Part shown: positions 10,363-34,959 of the stretch, in pieces
Layout: each line of letters begins with the position of its first letter
Position numbering within the stretch: the stretch's first letter is position 1
Assembly: GCA_027717645.1 (NCBI GenBank)
Contig: JALLOG010000019.1
Span: forward strand, 1 to 35,265
Origin: Desulfobacterota bacterium AH_259_B03_O07
Lineage (GTDB): Bacteria > Desulfobacterota_D > UBA1144 > Nemesobacterales > CSP1-2
Direction of reading: 5' to 3'
Length of the DNA: 35,265 nucleotides
The notes under the pieces: model-generated
Told to the model about the DNA's origin: nothing
Databases searched by the model: none
The model's input: only the letters and a program-made list of their open reading frames with translations
Position numbers and translations under genes: made by a program

Positions 10363-11034
10363 TTATGGTAATTTTTGATCTTTTCTCGGTGGATGTTTTA
10401 TAATTTCTCCGCTTTCAATATAGTAGGTATCTTCCGCGATGTTAGTAGCAAGGTCTGCAACCCTTTCTATGTCCCTTGCGATTAGAATAAGCTGTATGGA
10501 CTGATCAATTGTTTTGGGATCAGAAAGCATATAGGTAATAAGTTCTCTCATTATCTGGGGTTCCAATTCGTCCACTTCGTCATCCTTTTCGCATACCTGG
10601 CGAGCGAGTTCTTCGTCCGAGTTCACAAAGGATTCTATACTTTCTCGAAGCATCTCCATGGCTTTCTCAGCCATTCTTGGTATATCAATTAGAGGTTTTA
10701 CAGGGGGTTTATCTGCGATAGTGATTACCTTTTTTGCTATATTTACTGAATGATCCCCGATTCTTTCAAGGTCATTATTTATCTTCATAATCATTGTAAC
10801 TTTCCTTAGGTCTTTAGCTTCAGGATGATATAGAGCGAGAATCTTGATAGAGAGATTATCAATCTCAATTTCCATTTTGTTTATAATGTCATCACTTTTT
10901 ATAACCTCTTCTGCTAAAATCATATTTCTTTCAATCAAAGCCCGAACACTTTTGACAATCATTTCTTCGGCAGAGGTTGCCATATTCACCAATAGCTTAG
11001 TGAGATTATTCAAATCTTCTTCAAGTTTAATCAT
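10363..11034 (-). CDS. phoU: Phosphate transport regulator PhoU
   Basis: A 223-aa all-helical protein with the two PhoU repeats, each carrying the metal-binding pattern: LERIGDHSVNIAKKV in the first and IERVADLATNIAEDT in the second. PhoU links the Pst transporter to the PhoR kinase and holds the Pho response off when phosphate is ample. GGGAGAA precedes the ATG. It is the last gene of the pst block, 92 bp after arsC, its usual place in pst operons. No intrinsic terminator is visible downstream. Confidence 0.95.
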   Translation of the reverse strand: MIKLEEDLNNLTKLLVNMATSAEEMIVKSVRALIERNMILAEEVIKSDDIINKMEIEIDNLSIKILALYHPEAKDLRKVTMIMKINNDLERIGDHSVNIAKKVITIADKPPVKPLIDIPRMAEKAMEMLRESIESFVNSDEELARQVCEKDDEVDELEPQIMRELITYMLSDPKTIDQSIQLILIARDIERVADLATNIAEDTYYIESGEIIKHPPRKDQKLP

Positions 11035-11671: not shown

Positions 11672-12580
11672 TTATCCAAATTTACCGGAGACATAGTCCT
11701 CTGTCTGTTTGTTAGTAGGCCTTAGGAATATGTTTTCTGTTATGTCGTATTCAATTATCCTTCCCAAATACATAAATGCAGTATAGTCTGAAACCCTAGC
11801 CGCTTGTTGCATATTATGTGTGACAATTACAATTGTATAATTTTGTTTGAGCTCGGTTATCAGATCCTCAATTTTCCCCGTTGCAATTGGGTCTAGATCA
11901 GAGCAAGGTTCATCCATTAGCAGGACTTCAGGCTCTACTGCGATAGCTCTGGCAATGCAGAGTCTTTGCTGCTGGCCGCCAGAAAGGCTTAATGCACTTT
12001 CTCCCAACCTGTCCTTTACTTCTTCCCATAGGGCTGCTCCATTTAGACTATTTTCTACTATCTCATCCAGATCGGTGCTGTTCTTAATTCCAGATAGTCT
12101 TGGTCCATAAGCTACATTTTCATAAATTGACTTGGGAAATGGATTAGATTTCTGGAAAACCATTCCAACCCTCTTTCTGAGTTCTGTGACGTCAATATTT
12201 GAGTCGTAAATGTCTTCGCCACTTATCTTTACCGATCCTTCTATTGTTACGCCATCAATTAGGTCATTTAAACGATTTAGGCAGCGAAGAAGTGTGGATT
12301 TTCCACATCCAGATGGGCCAATAACGGCAGTGGCATGATTTTTGGGAATATCGATTAATATATCGATTATGGCGGGCTTACCATCATACTCGAGAGTAAG
12401 GTTTTCAATCTCAACGATGGGATCTGAAATTTCTAATTGATGGCTTCTACCTTCTTTCCTTATGCTGTCTTGCTTTTTATCCTCTAGATTTTGTTTTATC
12501 AATTGATCAGATTTTTTTAAGATTTGGTTATATTTTAGGATATTTCCCTGTACACTTGCCAAATTTAGTATAACCTCCAT
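11672..12580 (-). CDS. pstB: Phosphate ABC transporter ATP-binding protein PstB (N-terminally extended)
   Basis: The ABC ATPase of the Pst importer. Walker A is GPSGCGKST (88-96), the signature LSGGQQQ (198-204), Walker B LLMDEP (219-224), and the D-loop CSDLDP where PstB usually has CSALDP. The PstB mark [16 protein letters not shown] is present. At 302 aa it is about 45-50 residues longer than usual; the extra hydrophilic N-terminus precedes [17 protein letters not shown] overlaps the first ATG and may instead serve a TTG seven codons in, which would still leave most of the extension. Confidence 0.93.
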
Positions 12581-12630: not shown

Positions 12631-14256
12631 TTAAACACCTGGCAGAGTATACTTCTTCCTAAGGTAGTTTCTAATAATTATTGCTGTAAGATTCAATATT
12701 ACAACTATTAAGATAAGTAATAACGTAGTTGTAAATATCATGGGCTTAGCTGCTTCTACATTAGGGGATTGAAATCCTACATCATAAATGTGGAAACCAA
12801 GATGCATAAATTTTCTCTCAAGATGAATAAATGGGAAATGGCTATCAATCGGAAGATCGGGAGCAAGTTTAACAACTCCCGTGATCATAAGAGGTGCCAC
12901 TTCTCCAGTGGCTCTTGCAATTGCTAGGATAACCCCTGTAAGAATCGCTGGCATTGCACTTGGGATCATGACTTTCCAGGTGGTCTCAAATTTTGTGGCT
13001 CCTAGTGCTAGTGAGCCTTCCTTTACTGCCCTCGGGACTGCTGCCAAACCTTCTTCTGTTGCCACAATCACAACAGGAACTGTCAATAAAGCGAGTGTTA
13101 ATGATGCCCATAGGATGCCACCCGTTCCGAGAGTTGGTGTAGGTAGGGACTCTTTAAAGAATAGGCTGTCTATAGTCCCACCAATACCATATATGAAAAA
13201 ACCCACAGCAAAAATTCCAAATACTATAGATGGGACTCCAGCGAGGTTGTTAACACAAATTCTTACTATTCTCACAAGTAGCCCCTGTTTTGCATATTCT
13301 CTGAGATAAAGGGCGGCAAGCACTCCAAATGGTAAAACAACTATGCTCATTATCACGACCATCAACACCGTGCCAAATATTGCAGGAAAAACACCACCCT
13401 CTGTATTCGCTTCTCTTGGGTTGCCCGAAACAAATTCCCAAAGTTTAGAGAAATAAATTAGTAATTTTTCAAATATACTCATTGAATTGGGACGGTAAGC
13501 ACGAACGATAGTTCCTATCGACATTTCTTTTTCTCTACCGTCGATAGTTGAGATTGTTATCCTGTTTTGATTAAGTTGTTTATAGAGGGATGTAAGCTTA
13601 GATTCCTCTTCTTGAAAGAGTTTATTTTGGTCCTCAATCTTTTCTTCAAGTTTTTTGATGGAACTTTTATTTTCTCCTCTCTCAAGTTCCAGTTTGCGGA
13701 TTTGTAATCTGAGTTGTGAAATATTATAGTTGATATCACCTATCTTCTTTTTCTCTATCCTCTTTATTTCCTTATGGATTTCATGGGTCTTAGGAAGGAG
13801 GGATTTAAGAACAGGCCATGACTCCACATTTCCGGTGGCTATTGTCGTTCCGTCTGATCGGATCCCTTTAATAAATCCATACATATTGCCCCATTCAAGT
13901 CTTTCTAAAACAACAGCATCTTTTGGATATTCTATACTTTTAATCTGATTTTCGTCTATCCATTTGAAATCCAATCCATAAAGGTCGCGATTTCCGATCT
14001 TTAACTGAATTCTGGAATCCTTGTTTTTAGCAACGGCTTCACCGGGCTCGGGCTTTTTCTCACGGTTTGATATTTCTCCCATGTAATAAGTGCCGTCATT
14101 CAGTTCTATAACGGCAATGTCTGAAGGCCAGAAGAATCCTAATCCCTTATACATTATGAGAAAGAGCAGGCCACCGATCATAATCAGGCTAAAAACAAGC
14201 GAAAGGCCTGTTAGCCATATAAAAGGATCACCACTTTTCCAGGAATTTTTTTTCAT
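12631..14256 (-). CDS. pstA: Phosphate ABC transporter permease PstA with coiled-coil extension
   Basis: The C-terminal half (about 285-535) is a normal PstA permease with the EAA loop [22 protein letters not shown]. The N-terminal half is extra: a TM helix at about 14-36, then about 220 soluble residues that include a long heptad coiled coil (about 155-235, rich in K/E/L/I). Total length is 541 aa, against about 300 for the short form. Long PstA proteins with an added N-terminal domain are known in proteobacteria, paired with long PstC as here. The ATG overlaps the pstC stop (ATGA), so the two are translationally coupled. Confidence 0.92.
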
Positions 14257-16580
14257 AATTGACCGTATTTTTTCCTAAGCCTTTGTCTTACTAATTCTGC
14301 AGCAGTGTTTAACACGAATGTTACGAAAAAAAGTAAAAGTGCTGCAAGGAATAAAACTCTATAGAGTGTCCCCCCGTGTGGGGCTTCTGGAATTTCAACA
14401 GCTATATTTGCCGAAAGCGCCCTAAAACCGTTAAAGATAGACCAATCCATGATAGGGGTATTACCCGTTGCCATAAGCACAATCATTGTTTCTCCAACTG
14501 CTCTTCCAAGTCCAATCATGATTGCTGAAGATATTCCTGCACTTGCCGTTGGAAGGACTACTTTAATAGCTGTTTGCCATCTGTTGGCGCCTAGAGCCAA
14601 AGAGCCTGCGGTTAAATGCTTAGGTACATTTGATAAAGCATCTTCAGCAATACTGAAGATTATAGGAATTACTGCAAATCCCATTGCAAAACCGACTATC
14701 AAAGCATTCCTCTGATCATATTGGAGCCCAAGAACCTCAAATAGCCAATTTCTATAATCTCCGCCGAATAACATATTTTCTAATGGGGTATTTAACCAAA
14801 TACTAATCAGGATCCCTAAAATTATTATTGGTATAAGGAGGAAAAATTCGGTTCCTTCTCTAAACCTGGCATGAATAAACTTTGGCAAGTACTTCCAAAG
14901 AATCATAGCAACTAAAGTTAATATTGTTATGACTAAGGGCATCAAAAAAACTGCTGGAATAATTTTCTCAATGTAGGGTGCAAGCCAGAGGCCAGCAAAG
15001 AATCCCAAAACAACACTGGGTAGAGCTGCCATAATCTCTATAATGGGTTTAATAACATTTCTCATAGATGGGTGCATAAACTGAGAAACGCAAATAGCAC
15101 CCAATAATGACAATGGAATTGCAAAGATAAGAGCATACAGTGCTCCCTTCAGAGTGCCATAGGCGAGTGGTGTAAGGCTCAATTTTGGTTCAAACTCGTC
15201 TGTACCCCCAGTAGACTGCCATACGTAATCAGGTTTCGAATAACCCTCATACCAAACCTTACCGAAAAGTGTTTTTAAATTTGTCTCAGGATGTGGATTA
15301 TCAATATCCCAGTCATAAAAAACACCCTTTTGGTCAATTGCAAGGATGCCGTTTGCTTTTGGGGCGAATGCAATTGCTACTATTGAGGAACCTTCAGTAC
15401 TGAGCTGAAGCAACGTTTGATTTGATGTTGCGTGGTGGAGAGAAATATTACCACTACTATCGGCACTCAGAAAGCTCCTGTCTCTGGAGGATGAAGCAAT
15501 ATTTGTAATGGGTTGGTTGTGAGATTTAAAATGATGAATCTTTTGAAGTTTTCTTCCAATAGGTGAAGTTTCATCTTCAACTTGGAACCAGACAGATACG
15601 ACACCCGAAGCATCTCCTACTATAAGTGAGCGATCTCCTAGCAGGAATCCAAGTGCCGTTAAAGGAGTACCTGGTGGTGCAGTAGCACTTATGACATCCA
15701 CTAGTTTTGGATTCTGTTTATCACTTACCGACCAATGATATAGTCTTCCTTCTTTAGTGCCAACATAGAGGTTATCCAGAAAGCTATCCAGTTCTAAGGA
15801 GGTGACATTGTCTCCTTTTAGGCCTGAAGTTAAATCGTGTTTGAAAAGATTTTTTATTTCGTCGCTAATTAGGCTGCTGGACGTTTCTACTGAGACAAAA
15901 ACAAGTCTGCCATCAGAGGTAATTACAGCAGCAGCCCTTGAATCATCACTGGATTGATTATAGGCCAGCTTGTTTAACGTAATTGATTCAACTAAAAATG
16001 GCTCACCTTCAAATAGCCTTGGCTCGATGATTCTTTTTCCTTCCTGTGTAAAACTTACTTTAAAATTGATTTCTACTGGTAAAACATATCCATCTTCAGT
16101 TCCCAAGGCGTATTGTTTGTTATTTGATGACTCGAAAATTGAACTAACATTTTTTCCTTCTATTTTCGAAAGAGGAACTTGTTTTATGATGCTTCCATCT
16201 TTTAAGGATATAAAATTAATTTTTCCAGTTTTTGTGATGATAAACCCTATTTCTCTATATTCATCCAGCCCTATAGCAAATATGGGAATAGGTTTGTTGA
16301 ATGGAGTGTCATCGGTAATAATTATGGCTATTCCGGCGGTTTGTTTGATGTCGAATCTGCCAGATAAGTCAGCTTTAACTCCCCTCCAAAGGGGAATGAC
16401 CTCTATAGTAATAAAGAAAAGGATAGCTAGGATACTGAGAATAATTGCAATACCACCTGATGTTACTACCAGGCGGGCAAAGAAATCAGCAATCTGCCTT
16501 TTTCTTTTAATACGAGATTTAAAAGCGGATTGCAGATAAATTTTATCTTCTACATCCTTAAGTCTAGTGATGACGGACAT
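14253..16580 (-). CDS. pstC: Phosphate ABC transporter permease PstC with WD40-like propeller domain
   Basis: The protein has an N-terminal TM helix (about 34-66), then roughly 400 residues of WD40-like repeats (ALGTEDGYV, VGTKEGRLYHW, VGDASGVVSVW, LSADSSGNISL, AIDQKGVFYDW). The permease domain follows with its EAA loop (SNVPKHLTAGSLALGANRWQ). By topology the propeller should lie in the periplasm, where it could meet PstS or the matching PstA domain. Total length is 775 aa, against about 320 for short PstC. The ORF track starts at TTG 16586; the ATG at 16580 is preferred. It lies 33 bp behind pstS. Confidence 0.93.
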   Translation of the reverse strand: MSVITRLKDVEDKIYLQSAFKSRIKRKRQIADFFARLVVTSGGIAIILSILAILFFITIEVIPLWRGVKADLSGRFDIKQTAGIAIIITDDTPFNKPIPIFAIGLDEYREIGFIITKTGKINFISLKDGSIIKQVPLSKIEGKNVSSIFESSNNKQYALGTEDGYVLPVEINFKVSFTQEGKRIIEPRLFEGEPFLVESITLNKLAYNQSSDDSRAAAVITSDGRLVFVSVETSSSLISDEIKNLFKHDLTSGLKGDNVTSLELDSFLDNLYVGTKEGRLYHWSVSDKQNPKLVDVISATAPPGTPLTALGFLLGDRSLIVGDASGVVSVWFQVEDETSPIGRKLQKIHHFKSHNQPITNIASSSRDRSFLSADSSGNISLHHATSNQTLLQLSTEGSSIVAIAFAPKANGILAIDQKGVFYDWDIDNPHPETNLKTLFGKVWYEGYSKPDYVWQSTGGTDEFEPKLSLTPLAYGTLKGALYALIFAIPLSLLGAICVSQFMHPSMRNVIKPIIEIMAALPSVVLGFFAGLWLAPYIEKIIPAVFLMPLVITILTLVAMILWKYLPKFIHARFREGTEFFLLIPIIILGILISIWLNTPLENMLFGGDYRNWLFEVLGLQYDQRNALIVGFAMGFAVIPIIFSIAEDALSNVPKHLTAGSLALGANRWQTAIKVVLPTASAGISSAIMIGLGRAVGETMIVLMATGNTPIMDWSIFNGFRALSANIAVEIPEAPHGGTLYRVLFLAALLLFFVTFVLNTAAELVRQRLRKKYGQL

Positions 16581-16613
16581 AAACAATTAGCGAATCACAG
16601 AATAGTCTATGAT

Positions 16614-17627
16614 TCATTGGATTTTTTCTAGTTGTTTTTCAGCAATATTAGCCGTTAGTGGTAAATATCCATCTTTAATTACAACTTCTTGACCTTCTTT
16701 ACTTAGTATGAATTTTAAAAATTCTTCTCTTATTGGGTTTAGGTGCTTATTGGGTTCCTTGTTAATATAGAGGTAAAGAAATCTTCCAAGAGGGTATGAG
16801 CCATTGATAACATTTCCCAGATTCGGCTCTACACATGAGCCCCCGTCTTTTGAAAGTGGCACATCTCTGACACCTGAAGTTTTGTAACCGATACCACTAT
16901 AACCTATTGAATATTGATCCTCAGCTACACCCTGAACTACAGAAGCGGAACCAGGCTGTTCTTTCACGTGGTCTTTATAGTCACCTTTACACAACGCGTG
17001 TTTCTTTATATATCCATAGGTACCAGATGCTGAATTTCTACCATACATGCTTATAGGGCGATTTGCCCAATCACCTGTAAGACCTAATTGTCCCCAAGTT
17101 ATTATGTCTTCGGTTCCTCCACATTTTCTTGTCCTTGAGAAAATTGCATCCACTTGTTCAATGCTGAGACATTCTATTGGATTATCTTTATCAACATAAA
17201 TTGCGAGTGTGTCAATGGATGTACTAATTCTAGTGGGTTTATAGCCGAATGCTTTTTCAAATCTATCTATTTCGGTATTTTTCATAGCACGTGACATGGG
17301 CCCAAACTGTGCCGTTCCCTCAATAAGAGCAGGCGGTGCAGTACTCGAGCCCTTTCCCTCTATCTGGCATCTAACGCTTGGATAAAAATTGTTGAAGCCT
17401 TCGCACCATAGTGTCATTAAATTATTCATAGTGTCTGAGCCAATACTGTTAATATTCCCTGATACACCACTGACCTTTATATAATTTGGTATGTTAGAAT
17501 CTACCTTGACTGGCCCTTGAGCATTGACTCCTTGTGAATTAAATAGAGCACCAACAATTAGAGCAAAGATCGTTTGACTAAATACTAATCTAAATTTTAT
17601 AATGATTTCAGACAGTTTAATTCTCAT
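16614..17627 (-). CDS. pstS: Periplasmic phosphate-binding protein PstS
   Basis: A 337-aa substrate-binding protein with a Sec signal peptide (hydrophobic core FALIVGALF, likely cleavage after VNA at about residue 35). Phosphate-site motifs are visible: GSDTMNNLM, GKGSSTAPPALIEG, FGPMSRAM and GRNSASGTYGY. It binds phosphate in the periplasm and delivers it to PstCA. GGGAGGAAC precedes the ATG. Four 11-bp-spaced TTAA-centred repeats lie 52-92 bp upstream, so it should be strongly PhoB-controlled. It is the first gene of pstS-C-A-B-arsC-phoU. Confidence 0.95.
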   Translation of the reverse strand: MRIKLSEIIIKFRLVFSQTIFALIVGALFNSQGVNAQGPVKVDSNIPNYIKVSGVSGNINSIGSDTMNNLMTLWCEGFNNFYPSVRCQIEGKGSSTAPPALIEGTAQFGPMSRAMKNTEIDRFEKAFGYKPTRISTSIDTLAIYVDKDNPIECLSIEQVDAIFSRTRKCGGTEDIITWGQLGLTGDWANRPISMYGRNSASGTYGYIKKHALCKGDYKDHVKEQPGSASVVQGVAEDQYSIGYSGIGYKTSGVRDVPLSKDGGSCVEPNLGNVINGSYPLGRFLYLYINKEPNKHLNPIREEFLKFILSKEGQEVVIKDGYLPLTANIAEKQLEKIQ

Positions 17628-17678
17628 TTCGTAGTTCCTCCCTCTTTGGTTTCTATTATCAAGAATTAAACTATAAAA

Positions 17679-17719
17679 TTGTTAAGGGTTTGTTAAGATT
17701 TTATTAATAACGTGTTAAT
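17679..17719 (-). promoter_or_regulatory. Pho-box array upstream of pstS (four 8-mers, 11-bp period)
   Basis: On the plus strand TTGTTAAG-ggt-TTGTTAAG-att-TTATTAAT-aac-GTGTTAAT. On the reading strand this is ATTAACAC, ATTAATAA, CTTAACAA, CTTAACAA, each separated by 3 bases. PhoB-family regulators bind direct repeats with 11-bp spacing, and cyanobacterial Pho boxes have a similar TTAA core. A TATAGT or GATAAT closer to pstS could be the -10. The same 8-mer recurs before oprP. Confidence 0.85.
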
Positions 17720-17823: not shown

Positions 17824-19113
17824 TCAAGAAGTATATAACGGGAAGTTAATAATAAACTTGGTTCCTTTACCTACTTCACTTTCAACGTCAATTTGTGCAC
17901 CATGAATATTGGCTATATGTTTTACGATGCTGAGTCCTAATCCAGTACCTCCCATCTGTCTTGATCGTGTCTTGTCTACTCTATAAAACCTTTCAAAGAT
18001 TCTTTGTAAGTTTTCTCTCGGGATTCCCATTCCAGTATCAAAAATTTCTATTTTGATGCTTGAGTCTTGATTACTCGCATTCGCCCCAATTGTTCCACCT
18101 TCTGGTGTGTATTTTACAGCATTATCAACAAGATTAATGAACATCTGTTCAAGTAGAAACCTATTCCCCATTGTGATAGGTATAACTTCATTTAAATTGA
18201 GAGCAACTTTAAGATTTTTCTCGGTAGTGTTGCCTTTTAATGAATCATATGATGAAGATATGATTTCCCTAATGTCGACTTTTTCAAAATCTGAAACAAG
18301 TGATTCTTTCGATGAAGATTCCTTGCTTTCAATTTCTGATAGAACAAGCAGGTCAGAGACTATATTTATAAGTCGATCTGTATGCCTATTAATTGTGTTT
18401 AGAAAATGTTTTCTTTCATCTTGGCTTTCATAAGCTTCCTCTTGCAGTGTTTCAGTGTAGCCCTTTATAGCTGTGAGAGGGGTTCTAAGCTCATGAGAGA
18501 CATTAGCAATAAAGTCTGCTTTTATCTTTTCTAGGCTCTTGAAACCGGTTATATCGAATATAACAACAACTAGCTCTTTTTCTGGAGAATCTAGAGGGAT
18601 AACACTTGCTAGGTAGTGTTTTTCAGTCGGATAAAGAAATGCAATTTCTTTTTTGCACTCAGTATTAGTACTTAGGACATCTTCGATTAGCTCATTAAGC
18701 TCTGTGTTTCTAATAATTTCCCAATACCGTTCGTGAGTGAGATCCTCTTTAATTTGAAACATTTCCCTAATAGCGTTGTTAATAAGAATTACTTTGCCGT
18801 TACTCGATAGGAGCATTACGCCTTCACTCATTGAACTTAGGGCTGCTTTTAGCTCACCTCTCTCATGAGTGATTTGTTTGAACGACCGATTTAACATCAG
18901 AGCCATGTCGTTGAGAGCGTCAGAAAGTTTTTTTATCTCGCCTTTATTGTGATCAGTTGAAATTTTTGCGTCTAGATTCCCTTTCCTAATTTCTTCAGAG
19001 AATCGAATAATGTTCTTTATTACTTTTGAGAATTTTCTTGATGTGATTAACAAAAGGGTTATTGCGATAATAGCTATTATTAAGCAGATGAATACAATGA
19101 TGAGCATGATCAA
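17824..19113 (-). CDS. phoR: Phosphate-regulon sensor histidine kinase PhoR (single TM helix)
   Basis: The order is one TM helix (about 3-24), HAMP (25-75), a PAS domain (about 88-190), HisKA with H207 in NVSHELRTPL, and HATPase with N box LVDNAVKYTPEGG, G1 DTGMGIP and G2 GGTGLGLSI. This matches PhoR, which phosphorylates PhoB when phosphate is low. The first TM helix and periplasmic loop normally found are absent. The frame stays open for about 28 codons upstream but offers no start codon. The start is TTG at 19113 or ATG at 19107. It lies 103 bp behind phoB. Confidence 0.9.
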   Translation of the reverse strand: MIMLIIVFICLIIAIIAITLLLITSRKFSKVIKNIIRFSEEIRKGNLDAKISTDHNKGEIKKLSDALNDMALMLNRSFKQITHERGELKAALSSMSEGVMLLSSNGKVILINNAIREMFQIKEDLTHERYWEIIRNTELNELIEDVLSTNTECKKEIAFLYPTEKHYLASVIPLDSPEKELVVVIFDITGFKSLEKIKADFIANVSHELRTPLTAIKGYTETLQEEAYESQDERKHFLNTINRHTDRLINIVSDLLVLSEIESKESSSKESLVSDFEKVDIREIISSSYDSLKGNTTEKNLKVALNLNEVIPITMGNRFLLEQMFINLVDNAVKYTPEGGTIGANASNQDSSIKIEIFDTGMGIPRENLQRIFERFYRVDKTRSRQMGGTGLGLSIVKHIANIHGAQIDVESEVGKGTKFIINFPLYTS

Positions 19114-19216: not shown

Positions 19217-19909
19217 TTAATCTCCTTCCAATTTATATCCTATTCCCCTAATAGTCTTTATCATATTGCCGGCTTTTCCAAGCTTTTCTCTTAAATTTTT
19301 GATATGGACGTCAATTGTTCTATCGTAAACTAGTTTATCATCACCCCAAAGCCTTTTCTTTTTTAGTAATTGATCCCTTGTGAAAACGGTTCCTCTTCTC
19401 TGTATGAGGGCCTCAAGTATTTTGAATTCAGTAGTTGTAAGATCTATTTTGTTCCCATTTACTTTGACGTCGAATTTATCAGGATTGAGAGAAATCGGGC
19501 CAATCTTTAAATTTTCATCTTGAACTTCCTTAATTCCGGTTCTTCTAAGCAGGCTCTTAACCCTCGCTACTAATTCTCTTGGGCTAAAGGGTTTTACTAT
19601 ATAATCGTCGGCACCAAGTTCAAGTCCCACTACTACGTCTGCTTCTGAGGCTTTTGCAGTAAGCATAATAATGGGTAGTTTAGATGTACGATTTTTACTT
19701 TTTAGCATCCTACAAATTTCGAGTCCATCTATTCCGGGGAGCATAATATCTAGTAGTACCAAGTCTGGAATAATGGATTCTAAGAATGAAAGAAAACCCC
19801 TGCCATTATAAAATTCTTTAACCCTATATCCTTCTCGTTTTAGGTGGTGACTTACAAGTTCCACTATGTCCTCTTCGTCATCTACTATCGCAATAACCTT
19901 TTCAGCCAT
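19217..19909 (-). CDS. phoB: Phosphate-regulon response regulator PhoB
   Basis: A 230-aa OmpR/PhoB-type regulator. The receiver domain has the acidic pocket VDDEED (9-14), phospho-acceptor D54 in LLDIMLP, T84, and K106 in YIVKPFSP. The winged helix follows, with TTTEFKILEAL, FTRDQLL and the closing VYDRTIDVHIKNLREKLG...IRGIGYK. It should bind the 11-bp-spaced repeats seen at pstS and in its own upstream region. It is divergent from oprP and shares the intergenic space that contains one array, so autoregulation is likely. The ATG is preceded by GGGGGCT. Confidence 0.94.
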   Translation of the reverse strand: MAEKVIAIVDDEEDIVELVSHHLKREGYRVKEFYNGRGFLSFLESIIPDLVLLDIMLPGIDGLEICRMLKSKNRTSKLPIIMLTAKASEADVVVGLELGADDYIVKPFSPRELVARVKSLLRRTGIKEVQDENLKIGPISLNPDKFDVKVNGNKIDLTTTEFKILEALIQRRGTVFTRDQLLKKKRLWGDDKLVYDRTIDVHIKNLREKLGKAGNMIKTIRGIGYKLEGD

Positions 19910-19988
19910 TAGAGTAGCCCCCGATTATCTATATTTCTTAATATTATTATAGATTGGCACACCTCTTTAGCAATAAAGCTGTTTAGAA

Positions 19989-20029
19989 CTTAACAAAAAC
20001 TTAACATTAAGTTCATATCTAGTTAATTG
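19989..20029 (+). promoter_or_regulatory. Pho-box array between phoB and oprP
   Basis: CTTAACAA-aaa-CTTAACAT-taa-GTTCATAT-tcta... gives units at 19989, 20000 and 20011, and a weaker fourth (GTTAATTG) at 20022, all on an 11-bp period. The first unit is identical to two units upstream of pstS. The array is 50-90 bp before the oprP start and 80-120 bp before divergent phoB, so it could serve both. Confidence 0.8.
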
Positions 20030-20078
20030 TTACCTCTTATCATTTAAGTCAAATTCAATGAAGAAAAAGGAGGAAAGT

Positions 20079-21491
20079 ATGATATATGCGATTAGATTGC
20101 TGGCACTTGTAGTGCTTTGCACACAACTATTTATAGTACAGTCACAAGCACAAAACCAAAGTGGTAAGCAAGTAGCACAGAAAAGGAGTGATATTGAGGA
20201 GCTAAAAAGGCGGATAGATGAGATTCAGAGACAAAACCAGAAGCAGATTGAGGAACTTCGGAAAAAGATAGAACAGCTTGAGTCTGAAAGGGCATCTGAA
20301 AAAGAGGCTGCAGAGAAAGTCATTGCTAAGGAAAAGGAAGATAAAGATGCTTGGTATAACAAGTTCGAAGCTGGATATAAGAAAGGATTGTTCTTTAAAA
20401 CAAATGATGGGAACTTTTTAATGAAAATGAGACTACAAACACAGTTTCAATTTTCAGTGAATGATACGGATGATGAAGACACTGCTACAGATTTCCGCAT
20501 AAGAAGGTTTAGGGTGAAGTGGAATGGACATGCCTTCAGACCCTGGTTTCTGTACACAATTCAATTAGACGCCGATAGTGGAGATGTAAGATTGAGGGAT
20601 GCTTATTTCGGTGTCGCTTACAATACTGGAATTGTGCCAAGGGTGGGCCAGTTCAAGGTTCCCTTCAACAGGGAAAGGTTAACTTCATCGTCAAGCTTAC
20701 AGCTTGTTGAAAGATCCATTGTAAGTGATGAATTTAGTATCGGACGTGACATTGGTGGTGGATTATACGGGATATTTGGAAATATGATTACATATGGTGG
20801 TGGAATTTTTAACGGGGACGGAAGAAAAGCCAGGAGTACAGATTCCAATCTACTTTATGCCGGGAGAATACAATTTAATCCTTGCTGTGGAAAATTGAAG
20901 TATAATGGTGAAGAATTCCCTTCGGGGGGTTCTTATAAGTTAGTGCCGAACTTCGGTGGCAGACAACCTATTGTAGCTATTGGAGGCGCATTTTATACTT
21001 TTCCGGGTCTGAATATCGCTAGAAAAACCCCCGATGATCAGGGCATTGAAGAAAGGTTTTTGGAGCTAGGTATCATAAGAGGAAATGTATCGGGGATAAG
21101 TGCTGATATTGCTTTCAAACAAACAATCTATAGTTTTGTAGCTGAATATGACGGAAGGTGGATAGACCCGAAAGAGACAATAGATAGTCGTGTTTTAGAT
21201 ACCATATACGATCAGGGGTTCAGGGTTCAGGGTGGTTTTTTCTTGCTACCACATTATATAGAGGTTGCTGGAAGGTGGGCATATGTAAGATATGATAAAG
21301 TAGAAGGTTTAATTCCTGTATTGGTTGCAAGGAAAAGCAGATGGCAGATCACCCCTGGGCTTAACTTTTATCTCTCGGGGGATCACAGGTGGAAAATCCA
21401 GCTTTCCTATAATTTTATCAAAAACAAATTTTTAAACGGTGATGATATTAATGAAAACATAGTTAGAGCACAACTCCAGGCATATTTCTAA
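20079..21491 (+). CDS. oprP: Phosphate-selective porin, OprP/OprO family
   Basis: The protein has a signal peptide (cleavage after QSQA), a periplasmic coiled coil of heptads (about 25-75, DIEELKRRIDEIQRQ...), then a beta-barrel with the OprP/O pattern (RRFRVKWNGHAF, PRVGQFKVPFNRE, LVERSI) and a C-terminal aromatic residue (QAYF). OprP trimers form anion channels for phosphate or pyrophosphate. The ORF track starts at 20058, but AAGGAGG at 20067-20073 lies 5 bases before the ATG at 20079. That start also gives a cleaner signal peptide, so it is used here (470 aa). A Pho-box array precedes it. No terminator is visible. Confidence 0.9.
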   Translation: MIYAIRLLALVVLCTQLFIVQSQAQNQSGKQVAQKRSDIEELKRRIDEIQRQNQKQIEELRKKIEQLESERASEKEAAEKVIAKEKEDKDAWYNKFEAGYKKGLFFKTNDGNFLMKMRLQTQFQFSVNDTDDEDTATDFRIRRFRVKWNGHAFRPWFLYTIQLDADSGDVRLRDAYFGVAYNTGIVPRVGQFKVPFNRERLTSSSSLQLVERSIVSDEFSIGRDIGGGLYGIFGNMITYGGGIFNGDGRKARSTDSNLLYAGRIQFNPCCGKLKYNGEEFPSGGSYKLVPNFGGRQPIVAIGGAFYTFPGLNIARKTPDDQGIEERFLELGIIRGNVSGISADIAFKQTIYSFVAEYDGRWIDPKETIDSRVLDTIYDQGFRVQGGFFLLPHYIEVAGRWAYVRYDKVEGLIPVLVARKSRWQITPGLNFYLSGDHRWKIQLSYNFIKNKFLNGDDINENIVRAQLQAYF

Positions 21492-21679: not shown

Positions 21680-22270
21680 TTATTTGCCCTCCTTCCCCCT
21701 GAAAAAAAAGAAGGAATCTACATAACTGGAAAGTCTTGGCTGTCCGACAGAACCGGGGTCCAAGAAGCTCTTATTGCCAATTTGTCTTAAATATGGCTTG
21801 TGAGAATGTCCGCTTAATATAAAATCATATTTGAACAAGTCATAATTGACTCTTGGTTTGGGATGACCTTTGGAGTATGAACTATTTCCATGACTTATAT
21901 CATGACTTATATGGAGATTCAGACCTTCTAATAAGAGAACTGATTATCCAAATGGTAGTGTCCTTAGAAAACCTATCTCTTGGCTTTCAAGGAGGTCCTC
22001 ACTCCATTCCCTTGTTGTGTTTGATAAAGTATTTAATTCGTTATTACAGAGACACTCTTTAGCATATGCCATTGCATGGTCATGATCCCCCCTTACGCCC
22101 CAAAATTGGCCATATGAAGATTTTATTGGGAATCTTACACACTCCCTTGGGTTTGGACCAAAATCAACTACATCGCCCAGGAAGACAAGGCAGTCATAGC
22201 TTTGCTTGCTAAGTAGAGCTTCTAGGGCGTGCCAGTTGCGGTGCGTATCTGAGAGAATTAGAATTTTCAT
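21680..22270 (-). pseudogene. Metallophosphoesterase interrupted by one in-frame TAA
   Basis: Read straight through, this is a 196-codon calcineurin-like phosphoesterase (YfcE/PF12850 type): SDTHRN at the start, GDVVDFGPNP, RGDHDHAMA, and in the last third ILSGHSHKPY and LDPGSVGQPR. A single TAA at codon 109 (21944-21946), after LRTLPFG, splits it; the same frame continues with SVLLLEGLNLHISHD. Only the first 108 codons appear in the ORF track, and that product would lack the GHSH metal ligands. The GNHD motif reads GDHD. No Shine-Dalgarno is seen; a TATAAT overlaps the ATG. The organism's other genes use TAA as stop, so this is probably a recent pseudogene or a base-call error. Confidence 0.85.
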
Positions 22271-31636: not shown

Positions 31637-33175
31637 ATGAATAGGCACGTAGTAAAGAGTCTAAGCTTGCAACAAAAGATTGGCCAGATCCTGATGCCAA
31701 GGTTGAATTTTAAGGATCCAGGGGCTCTATCATATGCAAAAGAACTAGTTTCAAAATATCATTTTGGTTCATTTATAATCATGGGAGGAGAGTATCTGCA
31801 AGTCAGACAAGCAACTCAACAACTTCAGGATATTTCTGAATTTCCCCTCTTTTTTGGTTGTGATGCTGAGCGAGGAGTGGGTCAGGTTTTAGCAGGAGCA
31901 ACGCTCTTTCCTTCTAATATGTCACTTGGAGAAGTAGCCGACAGTGACCTTGTAAATCGAGAGGCGAGATTTATCGCAAATGAAATGAGCTTTTGTGGAC
32001 TGAATGTAAATTTTGCACCCATTGTGGATGTTAATACCAATCCCGAAAATCCAATTATAAATATCAGATCTTATGGAGATGATCCTAATTCAGTCTCGGG
32101 ACTAGGGATTTCATTCATTAAGGGATGTCAGGATGAGGGTGTAATGGCTTGTGCTAAGCATTTTCCGGGACATGGCAGTACTGGGATAGATTCGCATATA
32201 GAGCTGCCTAATGTGATGAGATCTCTGGATGAGTTCTTTAAATGCGAGTTAATACCATTTCAGAAGGCAATAAAACATGGCGTTTGATCAATAATGACTG
32301 CTCATATATCTGTTCCAAGAATTGATGTGAGAGGTGTTCCAGCAACGATTTCAGATGAAATTATAAATAAGCTCCTTCGTGACCTCGGGTTTCGCGGGTT
32401 GGTTTTTACAGACTCATTTCACATGGGTGCAATCGACAAATTTGGGAGCGAGGAGGAGATAGCTTCTATGGCCCTGACCTCTGGCTGTGATGTTATCCTT
32501 GACCCTCGCGATCCTTTGGATTTACTGGAGAAATTAATTGACAAGGCAGGTTCTGGAAAAATCTCTTTAGCTCTTTTGGATAGAGCGGTGGAAAGAGTCG
32601 TGTCAGCGAAAGACAGTTGGCTTAATAAAAGTGATATTAAGAAGCTAGAGAATAGAACCTCGGGACTTGATATAATTAATGAAATAGCGAGCCGATCGGT
32701 ATGTGTCTTAAAAGGTGGGAAGTTAGCAGCAAGGAAAGCAAAGGTCTATATTCTAGATGTAACACAATCTGGAGAGGATATATCTAAACCCTTTGTCGAT
32801 AATTTAACTCAAGGTGGTATAGGCTGCGATGTAGAGATAATTTTACCTTCCTACGAAAATAATCCATCTCGCTTAGATATAAATTCTTATGAATCTATAA
32901 TCTGTCTCATATATACTTCCGTTGGTGCGTGGAGTGATTATTCTAGATTACCGGAAGCTTATAGATTATTTTTGAAAAGGGTTAGCTATGCTGAAGGTGA
33001 AAAGGTTGTAGTTTCTTTCGGATCTCCTTATGTAGTTGAAAGGCTCAAAAATTTTAATACTATCGTCTGCACATTTGACCAGTTAGAAGTCTGTCAAATC
33101 GTTACAGCAGAGGTGTTGTTGGGACTACTAGAACCCCAGGGAAACATGCCAGTAGAATTAGCCTTGAAGTCATAA
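31637..33175 (+). pseudogene. nagZ: GH3 beta-N-acetylglucosaminidase (NagZ type) split by in-frame TGA
   Basis: The two track ORFs (31637-32287, 32294-33175) are one reading frame broken by a TGA at 32285-32287, between KHGV and SIMTAHI. The first part has KHFPGHGSTGIDSH (174-187), the NagZ-type His loop. The second has the nucleophile region LVFTDSFHMGAI (D about codon 259), then a C-terminal GH3 alpha/beta domain. Neither half alone has a complete site. No signal peptide is seen, so the product would be cytoplasmic, cutting GlcNAc from anhydroMurNAc. Total 513 codons. TGA is a normal stop elsewhere here (dapL, GT2, pstC). A nonsense mutation or sequence error is most likely; stop readthrough is possible. 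Confidence 0.85.
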
Positions 33176-33183
33176 TTATTCTT

Positions 33184-34959
33184 ATGTCGGAATCCTTACA
33201 ATCTATAATATCGTCATTAAGTCCGCTTGATTGGCTAATCGTCATATCGTATCTCGTTTTGTCTCTTTTAATAGGTGCCTACTTCACTAAGCGAGCTAGT
33301 AAAAGCATGGTTTCTTATTTCGTATCCGATAGAAATCTCCCTTGGTGGATACTTGGTACTTCAATGGTTGCAACTACATTCGCTACAGATACTCCTCTTG
33401 TTGTGACTGGCTGGATTCGTACGGATGGAATATGGAAAAATTGGTTTTGGTGGAATTACATCTTTAGTCACGTGTTTATAGTCTTTGTATTTTCTCGGCT
33501 TTGGAGAAGAGCTGAGGTGATCACGGATAATGAACTTATTGAACTTCGTTACAGTGGAAAGCCGGCTGCATTTCTTAGAGGTTTTAAAGCATTTTATTTT
33601 TCCACTATATTCAACTTCGTTGTTATGGGTTGGGTTATAAGTGCTATGGTTAAGGTTTTTAAGGTATTTTTTGGTTTCGAAACAACAATCGCTATTATCA
33701 TTTGCATATCAATTGCTTTTCTATACACGATGATGTCAGGGTTATGGGGTGTAGCAGTGACAGATTTTTTGCAGTATTTCATAGCTCTAATAGGCACGAT
33801 TATACTCGCGTGGGTTGTTATTGGCTCCCCAGAGATTGGAGGATTTCAAGGCTTTATCGAAAAACTTAAGGGTATTGATAGTCATACGTCGTTTTTTATG
33901 ACGCCTTCCGAAGGGGTTCCCGTAAGCGAGGGGTTTTGGAATTCTAGTTTCTTTGTCTTCCTGGTTTATGTTTCCATTATATGGTGGTCTTCTCATAATG
34001 CTGATGGTGGAGGATATTTTATTCAAAGGTTATGTTCTGCAAGAAATGAGCGTCATGCATTGTTAGGAACGGCTTGGTTTTCCCTGAACCATTATGTTGT
34101 TCGTCTCTGGCCGTGGGTTTTAGTAGCAATTGCCTCCCTTTTAATTTATCCCACAGCTAAACCGACAGGGGGAGATCAAGAAGCTATGTATTTAGTAGTT
34201 GTTAATGACTTCTTAGGGCCTGGTCTTAAGGGTTTATTGTTGGTATCATTTCTCGCTGCATTTATGTCTACTTTGTCTACTCAACTAAATTGGGGGACCT
34301 CTTACATTATAAATGATATATATAGGAGGTTTATCAATAGGGCTGCAAATGAAAGTCATTACGTTTTTGTTTCGAGAATATGTACTTTAATTCTGACGCT
34401 GGTTGCAGGGTATTTTGCTTTTCATATCAAAAATATAGGCAAGGCATGGATTCTCCTTTGGGCTATGAGTGCCGGAGTTGGATTAGTACTAGTTTTTAGA
34501 TGGTTTTGGTGGAGGATCAACGCATGGTCGGAGATAGCTGCTCTCGCTTCATCATTGATTACTATTTTTTCTCTGATTCTATATACAAGGTTTCAGAATG
34601 TTTCTCTTGAGCTCAAGCATCAAATCATAGTTGTTCCCGTGGCCATATTCAGTTGGGTAACAGTTACATATCTTACTAATCCTGAGCCGAGGGACACGTT
34701 ACTTAATTTCTACAATAGGGTTCGTCCATGGGGTTTTTGGGGACCCGTAAGGGAGATGAATCCGGTAGTGAAGTCACCGCCATTCGTTCCGGTTCTGATA
34801 AATTGGGTTCTGGGTGTTAGTTTCCTATTCTTTGCTATGGTTGGTGTAGGTAAACTTTTATTGGGATCTCCATTCGTTGGTTTAGCTATGATTGTAGTAT
34901 CACTATTCTCAGCGATTTTGATTTATTTGAGATTGAAAAGGGAGTTTAGTGAGAATTAG
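33184..34959 (+). CDS. Sodium:solute symporter (SSS/SLC5 family)
   Basis: A 591-aa transporter with about 13-14 TM helices and SSS marks: an N-terminal YLVLSLLIGAYFTKRASKS, a YFVSDRNLPWWILGTSMVATTFATDTPL segment (TM2 region), AFLYTMMSGLWGVAVTDFLQY, and LLLVSFLAAFMSTLSTQLNWGTSY near the sodium site. It starts 8 bp after nagZ with no clear Shine-Dalgarno, so it is probably translated from the same mRNA. Substrates of the family include sugars, sialic acid and amino acids. Position suggests anhydroMurNAc, MurNAc or a muropeptide, which is inference only. Confidence 0.9.
   Translation: MSESLQSIISSLSPLDWLIVISYLVLSLLIGAYFTKRASKSMVSYFVSDRNLPWWILGTSMVATTFATDTPLVVTGWIRTDGIWKNWFWWNYIFSHVFIVFVFSRLWRRAEVITDNELIELRYSGKPAAFLRGFKAFYFSTIFNFVVMGWVISAMVKVFKVFFGFETTIAIIICISIAFLYTMMSGLWGVAVTDFLQYFIALIGTIILAWVVIGSPEIGGFQGFIEKLKGIDSHTSFFMTPSEGVPVSEGFWNSSFFVFLVYVSIIWWSSHNADGGGYFIQRLCSARNERHALLGTAWFSLNHYVVRLWPWVLVAIASLLIYPTAKPTGGDQEAMYLVVVNDFLGPGLKGLLLVSFLAAFMSTLSTQLNWGTSYIINDIYRRFINRAANESHYVFVSRICTLILTLVAGYFAFHIKNIGKAWILLWAMSAGVGLVLVFRWFWWRINAWSEIAALASSLITIFSLILYTRFQNVSLELKHQIIVVPVAIFSWVTVTYLTNPEPRDTLLNFYNRVRPWGFWGPVREMNPVVKSPPFVPVLINWVLGVSFLFFAMVGVGKLLLGSPFVGLAMIVVSLFSAILIYLRLKREFSEN

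Follow-up and report, generated by a model that had tools for sequence, protein, structure and literature searches.

Four direct repeats between phoR and pstS, in the 35,265-nucleotide stretch of DNA analysed here (the window), are in our confident prediction the operator of a phosphate-starvation promoter, with PhoB as its binder and activator and with half-sites in a TTAA dialect rather than the familiar one. Judged from sequence, the array is very probably a class II PhoB promoter of a type that extends throughout the lineage. The initial annotation had already called it a Pho box before pstS, and that reading is borne out by order-wide conservation of the units, of their period and of their distance to a -10 hexamer, by enrichment of such arrays at phosphate genes, and by the phoB-phoR-pstS-pstC-pstA-pstB-phoU context. 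That PhoB is the protein bound, that it activates, that it is arranged in dimers and that an asparagine gives it its specificity is what we infer from these data. The features concerned are collected in Table 1.

Table 1. Positions of the repeat arrays, putative promoter elements and phosphate genes in the window
Feature	Position	Strand	Basis or remark
Predicted four-unit Pho box array, pst promoter	17679..17719	-	11-bp period, matrix, order-wide conservation
Putative -10 hexamer TTTAAT	17665..17670	-	8 nt after last pstS unit; conserved in order
Predicted four-unit Pho box array in divergent phoB/oprP gap, pointing at oprP	19989..20029	+	sequence, relatives
Putative oprP -10 hexamer TATCAT	20038..20043	+	8 nt after fourth unit; same place and type in relatives
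Promoter-like TTGCTA-16-TATAAT before phoB, separate from array	19946..19973	-	consensus match only
pstS, first gene of pst operon	16614..17627	-	PF12849 and TIGR02136 above cut-off
pstC, 777 aa, long N-terminal part	14253..16586	-	TIGR02138 above cut-off
pstA, 541 aa, long N-terminal part	12631..14256	-	TIGR00974 above cut-off
pstB	11672..12580	-	TIGR00972 above cut-off
phoU	10363..11034	-	TIGR02135 above cut-off
phoR-like sensor kinase	17824..19113	-	HisKA, HATPase, PAS domains
phoB, proposed binder	19217..19909	-	recognition helix RTIDVHIKNLREKL
oprP-type porin	20058..21491	+	PF07396

Two arrays in the phosphate locus

Read 5'->3' on the minus strand, positions 17719..17679 are ATTAACAC gtt ATTAATAA aat CTTAACAA acc CTTAACAA, exactly the four 8-mers with 3-bp gaps directly upstream of pstS that had been described from the sequence; the period is 11 bp throughout, and its division into 8+3 is a convention, 7+4 or 6+5 fitting equally. 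The pstS ATG at 17627 lies 51 bp downstream of the array and is preceded by a GGGAGGA ribosome-binding site. The second array, before oprP, reads CTTAACAA aaa CTTAACAT taa GTTCATAT cta GTTAATTG, and two of the pstS units are indeed identical to its first. Within the window, YTTAACAANNNYTTAACAA has a single match without mismatches, at the pstS array, and one further match when one mismatch is allowed, at the oprP array. An Rfam search of the window returned no RNA element near the array, its sole match being a tRNA.

A 41-column matrix, built from 16 pstS promoters that all come from other genomes, gives the pstS array 28.8 bits; the best site in the window outside the overlapping pstS registers (12503-12543) scores 5.8 bits, and with the same matrix 200 Markov-simulated windows have a mean maximum of 6.2 bits (sd 3.8, highest 20.4). 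The organism's own genome, fragmented (3.78 Mb in 712 contigs), was searched by pattern with reversed controls instead of by matrix. A three-unit pattern with up to two mismatches gave four matches there, against none for the reversed control: two registers at pstS, one at phoB/oprP and one elsewhere. Two-unit patterns with one or two mismatches showed no excess over control in this genome, and since such loose patterns are at background, weight can be given only to matches that are strong or span several units. A three-unit TTAA array at G000:C23:8338-8366 was rejected as a third target: it runs into the start codon of its gene, which encodes a 327-aa zinc-ribbon membrane protein, leaves no room for a -10 and is probably a chance occurrence. 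The expectation that the array would supply a lineage-specific matrix for the Pho regulon holds across the order, but in the fragmented genome itself it leads only to pstS, phoB/oprP and one doubtful site.

The minus-strand genes run phoB-phoR-pstS-pstC-pstA-pstB-small phosphatase-like gene-phoU. PhoB, a receiver joined to an OmpR-type winged helix and adjoining phoR and the pst operon, reaches 243.5 bits with TIGR02154, below the curated cut-off of 296.2, and this is still its best NCBIfam model; the phoR-like kinase reaches 304.7 bits with TIGR02966, below the cut-off of 334.2. The long N-terminal part of PstC has beta-propeller-like Pfam matches, mostly under their cut-offs. Downstream of oprP is a 108-aa metallophosphoesterase remnant (21944-22270, minus strand); intact relatives of 244-259 aa (G003, G001) are preceded by Pho-like arrays, so the window copy looks decayed. 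Elsewhere in the window a glycosyl hydrolase family 3 gene (31637-33175, plus strand) occupies two separate frames (profile 2-209 and 213-315), the result of a frameshift or an assembly error.

Conservation and distribution across the order

The pstS upstream regions of 28 relatives from the order, those with enough upstream DNA, were compared with that of the window. All 28 other readable loci have four units in register at the 11-bp period, followed after 7-8 nt by TTTAAT or a close variant. Unit 1 is usually [AG]TTAAC or GTTTAC and unit 2 [GT]TTAAT or TTTCAC; units 3 and 4 are CTTAAC or one change away from it. Over the 29 promoters the unit columns hold 1.2-1.7 bits and the hexamer 1.62, the flanks 0.18 and 0.38, and the array is conserved also in relatives with 53-55% G+C. 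Orthologous promoters share descent and their number overstates their independence; more weight lies with the control patterns and with the difference between units and flanks. In most of the phoB/oprP gaps that were read in relatives these four units recur; here the strong ones are distal, and a TATNNT-type hexamer follows the fourth after 8 nt.

The phylum is represented by 58 species in one class. In the other order of this class, whose genomes are about 1 Mb in size and, where read, 29-32% G+C, the array precedes pstS, oprP and a gene that matches PHO4 below threshold. Further afield, inspection by eye of Nitrospira loci (L032, L033, L034, L036, L038) found TGTAACA-like units at an 11-bp period before pstS, seemingly another Pho box dialect, and the region upstream of pstS in a Chthoniobacterales locus (L035) looked TGTCA-like. 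In the Nitrospira and other loci with a PstS 60-65% identical to that of the window, a search for an OmpR-type regulator to set beside the local PhoB found none.

Whether such arrays gather at phosphate genes, a question raised in the initial annotation, was answered by an exact-pattern search, and in the affirmative. There are 40 occurrences of CTTAACA-N4-CTTAACA in 41 genomes and two of the reversed pattern; when the gap between CTTAACA units is varied from 1 to 9, the 4-nt gap that gives the 11-bp period accounts for 40 of 47 matches, and the eight other spacings together for 7. Assigned by the nearest downstream open frame, 23 of the 40 precede pstS (16, one of a different pstS type), lie in phoB/oprP gaps (5) or precede the polyphosphate kinase 2 gene ppk2 (2). 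Eight, two of them overlapping, stand before members of one 190-aa family, four before one 80-aa family and one before a Ysc84-like protein; the remaining four, left unassigned, lack a phosphate-related or recurring neighbour. When 39 arrays, orthologous ones among them, are scored for likeness to TATAAT, there is a sharp maximum at an offset of 8 nt (3.79 matches out of 6, compared with about 2 elsewhere). An imperfect three-unit pattern gave 135 matches against 51 in the control (counts summed over the search table), and its additional places include metallophosphoesterase genes and the space that separates a glycosyltransferase from an ornithine-lipid-type GNAT acyltransferase.

The 190-aa family has no Pfam or NCBIfam match and is missing from the genome of the window, as is PPK2, whose gene is a target in relatives. 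Every orthologue with intact upstream DNA has two or three units, and in nearly all of them the array is followed at 8 nt by a TA-type hexamer. One example (G019 L160:3362-3931; orthologues L187-L199) has genes for PAP2, two glycosyltransferases and a GNAT acyltransferase of ornithine-lipid type in its vicinity, a neighbourhood that hints at phospholipid replacement. The window also encodes a GNAT acyltransferase (PF13444; 1517-2389, plus strand), 63% identical to the one in this lipid cluster, with no array visible before it. The 80-aa family (MDPNSGAKRLMGYAFLVVFANDD...), without a Pfam match, has an array followed 8 nt on by TATAAT (L165, L166, L168; G027, G023, G008).

Relation to known boxes and the predicted reading of TTAA

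The repeats of Bacillus subtilis PhoP, TT(A/T)ACA at a period of about 11 bp and often four in number, are TTAACA-like, as are those found here; they belong to a Gram-positive lineage. These repeats and the PmrA box are equally as near to the array as the cyanobacterial box to which it had initially been likened. That likeness was rightly seen: the SphR/PhoB box (CTTAACCT; PMC1906773) is likewise found at pst genes as a tandem of at least three TTAA-type 8-bp direct repeats separated by 3-bp linkers. It comes from another phylum; in the present lineage the number of units, four, and the distance to the -10 are constant, and the seventh base is mostly A (CTTAACA), the exception being family f6 with CTTAACCT as its last unit. 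The window units are CTTAACAA, ATTAACAC and ATTAATAA, and CTTAACCT itself is the last pstS unit in some relatives.

Escherichia coli PhoB boxes (CTGTCAT) are tandem 11-bp units that occupy the -35 position and lie about 10 bp upstream of the -10 (PMC1906773, PMC4415409). The pstS array shares the direct repeats at this period and, by prediction, the PhoB regulator, and its conserved hexamer, together with the offset peak 8 nt after the 8-mer, puts it in the same place relative to the promoter. The difference from the TGTCA type, also recognized in the initial annotation, lies in TTAAC, in four units as the rule and in Asn in place of Arg; the sole CTGTCAT-type half-site in the window, at 33757, has three mismatches and is within chance. 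Pho box consensus is known to vary between species (PMC4415409). The PmrA/BasR box (CTTAAG and XTTAAT, also CTTAAG/CTTAAT) has TTAA-type half-sites 5 bp apart, hence the same 11-bp period (PMC3973317), but usually only two of them, and it serves another signal and other targets.

In an alignment with E. coli PhoB and BasR, Asn205 of the local PhoB falls at Arg201 of E. coli PhoB, a residue that contacts guanine (PMC3973317). BasR/PmrA also has Asn at this position, in an HI-x-N-LR helix like that of the local PhoB, and the crystal structure of PmrA shows this residue, Asn196, reading bases (PMC4660055). The local helix is unchanged in relatives where it is readable and nearly the same, RTIDVHVKNLREKL, in the other order. 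The TTAA-type half-site is probably due to Asn having replaced the guanine-reading Arg201, though at the sequence level the pairing of Asn with TTAA and Arg with TGTCA is a correlation over three proteins and not proof. We hold it possible, at slightly less than even chances, that PhoB throughout the phylum reads a PmrA-like TTAAC through Asn for Arg and that the whole Pho regulon is in this dialect, including the 190-aa family, whose gene neighbourhood suggests a phosphate-controlled replacement of phospholipids.

Proposed mechanism, alternatives and significance

At low phosphate PhoR would phosphorylate PhoB, and phospho-PhoB would bind the four direct repeats, presumably as two head-to-tail dimers, with one subunit per 11 bp and all subunits facing the same side of the helix. 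Of the four units, the two strong proximal ones (CTTAACAA) would replace the -35 element and the two weaker distal ones would stabilise binding; PhoB would then recruit sigma-70 RNA polymerase to the TTTAAT -10 lying 8 nt downstream, switching on pstS-pstC-pstA-pstB-phoU. The phoB/oprP array would play the same role at oprP, with a possible further effect on phoB.

An operator of some other OmpR-family regulator, for example one of PmrA/BasR type responding to envelope or metal signals and counting phosphate genes as only some of its targets, might look much the same, given that the PmrA box is also TTAA-type with an 11-bp period (PMC3973317), and the genomes do contain several further OmpR-family candidates. 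We consider this unlikely, since the strongest and most widespread arrays stand at pstS and before phoB itself and the helix of the adjoining PhoB is nearly unchanged across the order; the Asn that the local PhoB has in common with PmrA would explain the TTAA reading without a second regulator. It is more improbable still, pstS being an activated target in well-studied systems, that the array serves mainly as a repressor site through which PhoB or another factor blocks pstS or phoB. The position of the oprP array just upstream of the promoter-like phoB site would suit such a role, and repression of some genes by Pho regulators is on record for other bacteria (PMC4415409), but the fixed 7-8 nt to the -10, found in several gene families, is the layout of an activated PhoB promoter. 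As for a chance product of AT-rich DNA, the 62% A+T of the window and the background level of loose two-unit patterns in its genome lend that idea some plausibility, but the array's matrix score far above the simulated maxima (28.8 bits against an average of 6.2), its persistence in relatives of 53-55% G+C and the spacing and reversed controls leave it next to no probability; in our view matrix, conservation and pattern controls refute it.

Pho boxes as a kind are already known, TTAAC-type ones in cyanobacteria included, and a Pho box before pstS is ordinary; what is new is the dialect in this lineage, the predicted regulon and the Arg-to-Asn correlate. A limited search of the open-access literature found no description of this dialect, of its conservation in the phylum or of its regulon. 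In a phylum that is known almost exclusively through metagenomes, the signature of four 11-bp units, 7-8 nt and a -10 picks out phosphate-starvation genes and predicts new members of the Pho regulon that lack a known function. The PhoB of this lineage also offers a clean test of whether one recognition-helix residue of PhoB and PmrA sets the reading of TGTCA or of TTAA.
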